Assembly: GCA_022340515.1 (NCBI GenBank)
Contig: JAJDNT010000284.1
Coordinates: 1-43,034 of the forward strand
DNA: 43,034 bases
Direction of reading: 5' to 3'
DNA from: Deltaproteobacteria bacterium
GTDB taxonomy: Bacteria; Desulfobacterota; Syntrophobacteria; BM002
Below are positions 13,217 to 13,507 of this stretch, piece after piece. A program made the translations under genes and the position numbers. The notes under the pieces are model-generated. The model was not told the origin of the DNA. It worked only from the letters and a program-made list of their open reading frames with translations, and did not search any database. Positions within the stretch are counted from its first letter, which is position 1. Each line of letters opens with the position of its first letter.

Positions 13217-13507
13217 TTGAAAGTCATTACTACTGTACTCATGACCTTTTTGCTCCTTGGATCTATTTGGGCGGGGGCGGTTCAGTCAAAGGAGCCGCCC
13301 CTGGCTAAAGTGGTGTTTTACGTTGCCTGATACGATGTGGGCAAGGCAGCCCTGGACGGGTTGCAAGGCATCAAAGAGGTAAAGAAAGGTTTTCGCGGAT
13401 TCCGGGAAATTAACACCGTGATTTATGACCCCAGAATAATCACCATAGACGCAATGGTATCGGCCCTGAAAAGGGCCCGCACCTATGGCGGACTAGCACA
13501 GGAGTGA
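13217..13507 (+). CDS. Candidate selenoprotein: secreted, HMA/MerP-like fold, one in-frame TGA (13328..13330) read as Sec; 96 aa
   Basis: TTG start at 13217 after GGGAGAG. Frame reads (M)KVITTVLMTFLLLGSIWAGAVQSKEPPLAKVVFYVA-[TGA]-YDVGKAALDGLQGIKEVKKGFRGFREINTVIYDPRIITIDAMVSALKRARTYGGLAQE*. Coding-like protein continues past the TGA; SECIS-like hairpin follows. Not in the ORF track because of the TGA. Confidence 0.7.
13346..13364 (+). promoter_or_regulatory. Putative bacterial SECIS-like hairpin downstream of the in-frame TGA
   Basis: GCAGCCC-[TGGAC]-GGGTTGC: 7-bp stem (one G-U pair), 5-nt loop with G at position 2, 22 nt between TGA and loop. Confidence 0.6.

Follow-up and report, generated by a model that had tools for sequence, protein, structure and literature searches.

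The frame at positions 13217-13507 of the window (the whole 43,034-nucleotide stretch of DNA that was analysed) is best read as coding for a member of an undescribed family of exported proteins that contain a single selenocysteine (Sec) and act in periplasmic methionine-sulfoxide repair. We consider it rather probable that the product, an exported selenoprotein of about 96 residues, carries an MsrA-like Sec/Glu centre and belongs to a periplasmic methionine-sulfoxide repair module. The gene, its parts and the genes upstream of it are as follows.

10005-10715, forward strand: response regulator of the two-component pair upstream of msrAB (PF00072 and PF00486).
10732-11817, forward strand: sensor histidine kinase of the same pair (HAMP, HisKA and HATPase_c).
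11997-13196, forward strand: msrAB, an MsrA-MsrB fusion with an N-terminal hydrophobic segment (PF01625, 218 bits; PF01641, 172 bits).
13203-13210, forward strand: Shine-Dalgarno-like sequence AGGGAGAG, 6 nt 5' of TTG 13217.
13217-13507, forward strand: predicted selenoprotein gene, with TTG start, TGA stop at 13505, 96 amino acids and Sec as residue 38 of the translation.
13217-13285 (end approximate), forward strand: putative N-terminal signal peptide or membrane anchor, a hydrophobic stretch recognized by eye.
13304-13501, forward strand: predicted ferredoxin-like (beta-alpha-beta-beta-alpha-beta) domain, residues 30-95 (AlphaFold2 and Foldseek).
13328-13330, forward strand: predicted Sec codon UGA, residue 38, kept in 71 of 74 relatives.
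13346-13364, forward strand: predicted bacterial SECIS hairpin with the apical loop at 13353-13357 (synonymous constraint and covariation).
13406-13408, forward strand: codon of Glu64, aligned by hhalign with the acid-catalyst Glu of MsrA and invariant in 71/71 members.

The frame from TTG 13217 to TGA 13505 is interrupted by a single in-frame TGA at 13328-13330, and its translation is LKVITTVLMTFLLLGSIWAGAVQSKEPPLAKVVFYVA-U-YDVGKAALDGLQGIKEVKKGFRGFREINTVIYDPRIITIDAMVSALKRARTYGGLAQE. That the frame is broken only once had been stated in the initial annotation and is borne out, further frame damage being absent; the ribosome site claimed there corresponds to the Shine-Dalgarno-like sequence listed above. 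The closest relatives have ATG at the position aligned with the TTG of the window. Relatives with a complete start have an N-terminus that is likewise hydrophobic, with variable sequence, and this similarity favours the signal peptide proposed earlier and suggests that the protein is exported to the periplasm.

Relatives were sought by scanning 85,462 species genomes with two peptide patterns, [YF]D[VI]GKxAL[ED]G and [RK]E[IV]N[TAK]Vx[YF]DP. Both patterns lie wholly 3' of the UGA, so the scan was unable to favour any codon at the Sec position. 74 loci were recovered, and in 71 of them a TGA stands directly before the YDVGK stretch. One locus (L065) has Ala at the Sec position in a copy that is damaged upstream, and two others (L121 and L127) are degraded copies. 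A search of 99 related genomes gave further matches, 48-71% identical, nearly all of which contain exactly one in-frame TGA (one match has none), and additional relatives were obtained when 396 genomes of the phylum were searched with a profile. Neither the 74 loci nor this sample of 396 genomes yielded a Cys at the Sec position. The initial annotation had proposed looking for homologues with Cys or TGA at this column; the TGA forms were thus found and the Cys forms were not. The only clean substitution is Ser (codon AGC) in L018. Loss of Sec decoding was rejected as the cause of this Ser form because selB is present in the L018 genome, and its occurrence despite selB was counted against the best reading. 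The carriers are mainly Desulfobacterota MAGs, together with Nitrospirota, Myxococcota and SAR324 records; they include two cultured organisms (Desulfosediminicola flagellatus IMCC35005 and Desulforhopalus sp. IMCC35007) and Olavius symbionts (L067, L069 and L080).

The protein-like sequence that had been noted past the TGA is found in the relatives as well, which continue beyond the TGA with Sec at the same column. dN/dS after the UGA was 0.05-0.22 among close relatives and 0.11-0.46 between the window and those relatives for which it was computable, and the post-UGA differences among close relatives are concentrated at third positions. These values indicate that purifying selection is acting downstream of the TGA. 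We regard the comparative evidence, a TGA at this codon in 71 of 74 relatives, as decisive for UGA read-through.

The hairpin GCAGCCC[UGGAC]GGGUUGC at 13346-13364 has a 7-bp stem and a 5-nt loop, with a UGA-to-loop spacing of 22 nt and a G in the second position of the loop UGGAC; the 48-nt fold has an energy of -16.7 kcal/mol. It satisfies all of the published limits for bacterial SECIS elements (loop 3-9, stem 4-16, spacing 16-37, MFE <= -7.5; PMC13188914). The stem, the spacing and the fit to the published model were therefore given correctly in the initial annotation, which had also placed a G in both of the first two loop positions; this holds for one of them. The fold energy of the single sequence is moderately unusual (z = -1.9; 9/200 shuffles were equally good) and is weak evidence for a SECIS element. 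In 70 distinct sequences the apical codons are frozen (Ala GCC 63/70, Leu CTG 69/70, Gly GGG 64/69), whereas Gly positions away from the apex use GGG in only 5/70 and 8/70. The stem pairs 13348-13362 and 13347-13363 are variable and covary, being paired in 87% of cases versus 62% (sd 4%) and in 79% versus 68% (sd 2.5%) in shuffles that swapped codons only between sequences sharing the same amino acid. None of 2000 such shuffles reached the observed pairing at either pair, a count that is not a true probability because related sequences are non-independent. At the outermost stem pair no excess of pairing over the shuffles was found. The hairpin is lost in the Ser homologue L018, and an Rfam search with the hairpin gave no relevant match.

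The Sec machinery for which a check had been proposed is present in the host genome, namely tRNA-Sec (75 bits), selB (388 bits), selA (612 bits) and selD, the last of which itself carries a TGA; selB was found in 20 of 20 genomes checked. With the conserved TGA, the constraint on the SECIS element and the host machinery, the candidate selenoprotein of the initial annotation is strongly supported at the level of sequence, and UGA 13328 is very probably read as Sec, as predicted by comparison of the relatives.

Searches of Pfam gave no match for the window protein. Two NCBIfam matches are of interest, both far under the cut-off: NF041115 (23.5 bits versus a cut-off of 95; members 23-34 bits) and NF041383 (28.5 bits versus a cut-off of 275). 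No named family was thus found above the cut-off in Pfam or NCBIfam, in line with the earlier statement that none was recognized. Among the 71 members, weak profile matches were obtained to NF041383 (71), NF041115 (61), PF01625 MsrA (15; best member E 1e-3, under the family cut-off, with no match for the window protein) and PF00403 HMA (four; best E 0.022). NF041383 describes the VPGUxxT thioredoxin-like (seleno)protein type 2 (OS_HP5). Despite their weak matches to it, the 71 members have no thioredoxin domain, and their Sec lies in an HMA/MsrA-like domain and not in VPGUxxT. The window protein covers profile positions 139-203 of NF041383, a region that also matches MsrA. As a separate observation, the C-terminal half of this profile (positions ~130-258) matches the MsrA domain of the window msrAB, so the NF041383 family looks like a thioredoxin-MsrA fusion.

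An AlphaFold2 model was obtained with the topology beta-alpha-beta-beta-alpha-beta and a pLDDT of ~98 over most of residues 30-90. Sec38 is placed at the end of strand 1 and the start of helix 1, and Glu64 at the start of strand 3; the two residues are presumed to be near each other in space. Foldseek returned MerP and copper chaperones first (1.2e-3), with E. coli MsrA close behind (0.007-0.024). In profile-profile comparisons with hhalign, the family scored 56.1 with MsrA, in an alignment of 54 columns that spans the active site, and 52.0 with HMA, where the 45 aligned columns exclude the Cys motif; MsrA and HMA scored 32.3 with each other. The E-values of these single comparisons are not database E-values. 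When the family is aligned with MsrA, Sec coincides with the catalytic Cys, and Glu64 with the Glu in the HxEAVxVxYDP motif; the MsrA residues concerned are Cys51 and, as acid catalyst, Glu94 (PMC6210582). Glu64 is accompanied by a near-invariant Asn66, and exactly one Cys/Sec is present in the domain in 70 of 71 members, in agreement with the single-Sec protein described initially.

The domain resembles MsrA (PF01625/TIGR00401, including Sec-MsrA) in its ferredoxin-like core, in Phe/Tyr at +1 from the Sec, in the Gly and aromatic residue of 'GY' and in the Glu at the acid-catalyst position. It differs in length (~66 residues versus ~150), in lacking the strand 2-3 loop and the C-terminal half, and in scores under the Pfam cut-off. 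The residues that hold the sulfoxide in MsrA (Trp53, Tyr82, Asp129 and Tyr134) are only partly kept, and this counts against an MsrA-like reading: in the alignment Trp53 (the Trp of GCFW) is replaced by Asp, Phe or Trp stands at the place of Tyr82, and the part of MsrA that contains Asp129/Tyr134 is missing. The slightly higher placing of MerP than of MsrA by Foldseek also counts against it. We regard the domain as a minimal relative of the MsrA and HMA domains. The ferredoxin-like fold is common to both, and in the sequence alignments MsrA appears to explain the active site better than MerP/HMA does. The HMA/MerP-like character assigned initially thus stands as far as the fold is concerned, and does not for the active site, which aligns with that of MsrA and mostly lacks the first metal ligand (position -3 from the Sec).

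The mechanism that we favour may be outlined as follows. SelB would decode UGA 13328 using the hairpin, Sec38 would take the place of the catalytic Cys of MsrA, and Glu64 on strand 3 that of its acid catalyst. The Sec selenolate, with Glu64 as the proton donor, could then reduce a sulfoxide or another form of oxidised sulfur and become Se-OH. Since the domain has no second Cys/Sec, the Se-OH would be reset by an outside thiol, or the protein would work by forming a mixed selenenylsulfide with a partner protein, for instance MsrB. A narrower proposal, which we put forward tentatively as possible but less likely than not, is that the protein is a stand-alone minimal Sec-dependent sulfoxide reductase. 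It would be an MsrA catalytic core reduced to a single ferredoxin-like domain, with a sequence lying between those of MsrA and HMA domains, and known only as the Sec form. We prefer a Sec/Glu centre that reduces sulfoxide or oxidised sulfur, rate a role purely in recycling as almost equally likely, and consider a role in metal binding unlikely.

In the window, msrAB ends 20 bp upstream of TTG 13217 and the two-component pair lies directly upstream of msrAB. Downstream of the module, 14260-15426 codes for a TauE/SafE-type permease with an N-terminal extension. Of the 72 analysable loci, 37 have msrA and/or msrB on the same strand at a distance of no more than ~1.7 kb, a tally made without two more distant matches (the table total with them is 39). 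The arrangements are varied, with fused msrAB upstream in 16, msrB then msrA upstream in three, msrAB downstream in 11, and single or split genes in six. In L033/L060, apparently the same MAG, the Sec domain is fused in frame to the C-terminus of MsrB (L060:4113-4922; the N-terminus of this MsrB is Tat-like). The link to MsrAB that was drawn in the initial annotation is well supported by the number of loci, the several gene orders and this fusion. In five other loci (L068, L076, L085, L103 and L113) a PF00174 molybdopterin oxidoreductase is encoded directly upstream of the Sec gene; the best NCBIfam matches of these proteins are sulfite dehydrogenases and MsrP, all under the cut-off. They are 216-238 amino acids long, shorter than SorA/MsrP, and have a twin-arginine-like N-terminus. 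Two-component genes lie nearby in 31 loci, a rough count since the neighbours were grouped by single linkage. In two loci an exported protein of ~225 amino acids with no Pfam match is encoded upstream of the Sec gene, after a two-component gene (L069:-925..-248 and L098:-898..-230, relative to the UGA).

Gene linkage places the Sec protein in a module for periplasmic methionine-sulfoxide repair, and this module often has a two-component system of its own. MsrPQ of E. coli, of which HprSR is the dedicated two-component system, is alike in combining such repair with such a system. Two observations on the loci count against the MsrA-like reading, namely that ~30 of 72 have no Msr or PF00174 neighbour (some owing to a contig end) and that a full-length MsrA is usually present, being adjacent or elsewhere in 9 of 10 genomes. 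The idea that the Sec protein substitutes for MsrA beside a lone MsrB (L059, L060, L112 and L117) was abandoned, as these genomes have MsrA elsewhere. A second MsrA in the host of the window (L188; G000:C95:6800-7800, minus strand) has a hydrophobic N-terminal segment and, in the catalytic position, Sec (ATFALGUFWGPDAQF); similar Sec-MsrAs occur in L159, L171, L172, L179 and L187.

The alternative that survives best, which we hold possible though doubtful, is that the Sec protein is a recycling partner that reduces or resolves oxidised MsrA/MsrB in the periplasm, as the N-terminal Trx-like domain of PilB does. The gene linkage and the fusion to MsrB would suit such a role. In most of the linked MsrBs a T stands where the resolving Cys would be (SGTGWPSF), so that they would need an outside reductant, but MsrBs of this Thr type are the rule in the phylum (28/30). 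The Thr type is thus not specific, and the missing resolving Cys was dropped as evidence pointing specifically to a Sec partner. A precedent is offered by the Sec glutaredoxin adapted to Sec MsrA that is named in the title of Kim et al. 2011 (reference list of PMC13188914). The Sec protein itself has no Trx fold and no CxxC, and the invariance of Glu64 would need another reason. PilB of Neisseria (Trx-MsrA-MsrB) likewise carries a dedicated reductant domain for periplasmic methionine-sulfoxide repair (PMC6210582); neither PilB nor MsrPQ/HprSR employs a small Sec protein.

That the family has already been described is unlikely. A 2008 GOS table contains an entry 'Mercuric transport protein MerP' with two sequences, no motif and no Cys homologues (PMC2398784), which may correspond to this family; its source is the NAR 2007 paper on an Olavius symbiont, and Olavius symbionts carry relatives of the window protein (L067, L069 and L080). 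In later tables, however, this entry gives way to a MerT-type and a UxxU protein, and the 2026 inventory of 119 families contains no match to the window family by motif and domain. The survey of the Sargasso Sea demanded at least two Cys homologues (PMC1088965); a family of ~70 members with no Cys form would be missed by such a search. The NCBIfam and Pfam releases searched give the family no name, so its entries in public genome records are likely to be cut short or left unannotated.

Less likely still is an HMA/MerP-type metal binder in which Sec would bind Hg, Cu or another soft metal. The fold is identical, MerP and the copper chaperones rank best in Foldseek, MerP is the best PDB sequence match (0.0026), and the 61 matches to NF041115 (UxxU), all under the cut-off, point the same way. 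HMA/MerP/CopZ proteins (PF00403, TIGR02052) are also alike in size and in the place of the Sec at the second Cys of CxxC, and MerP likewise carries a signal peptide, as is predicted here. Against this, the domain offers a single soft ligand. Position -3, which is Cys/Sec in HMA and UxxU proteins and forms the first HMA ligand, is Y in 41, A in 10, V in six, F in five, G in five and Q in two of the 71 members (69/71 in all), so that only the second position of the CxxC/UxxU metal site is kept. The initial alignment of the UGA with the second CxxC Cys holds for the Sec itself, while the first Cys is replaced in 69/71, and plain membership of MerP/HMA was rejected for lack of the first ligand. 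The family differs further in the invariant Glu64 and near-invariant Asn66 and in linkage to Msr genes rather than to metal genes, none of which recur among the neighbour clusters. The NF041115 metal-binding (seleno)proteins are similarly small, Sec-containing, HMA-like and from Desulfobacterota, but have two Sec as UxxU where a single Sec is found here, and the example in L045 has Lys at the place of Glu64 (by eye). L045 and L047 each encode an HMA-like protein in which two in-frame TGAs form a UxxU (IUPAUP and UMSU); these are probably NF041115 members. The weakest alternative, a pseudogene with a nonsense mutation, would account for the TGA that interrupts the window frame, but is refuted for practical purposes by the presence of the identical TGA in 71 of 74 relatives, which span several phyla, the dN/dS values indicating purifying selection after it and the SECIS-specific constraint.

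The cultured carriers IMCC35005 and IMCC35007 allow the family to be tested. On the best reading given above, the family would connect Sec in anaerobes with the repair of proteins beyond the cytoplasm, and it offers a bridge from the fold of MsrA to that of HMA. If the protein is indeed a minimal sulfoxide reductase that exists in the Sec form only, methods that depend on Cys/Sec pairs would be blind to this family.
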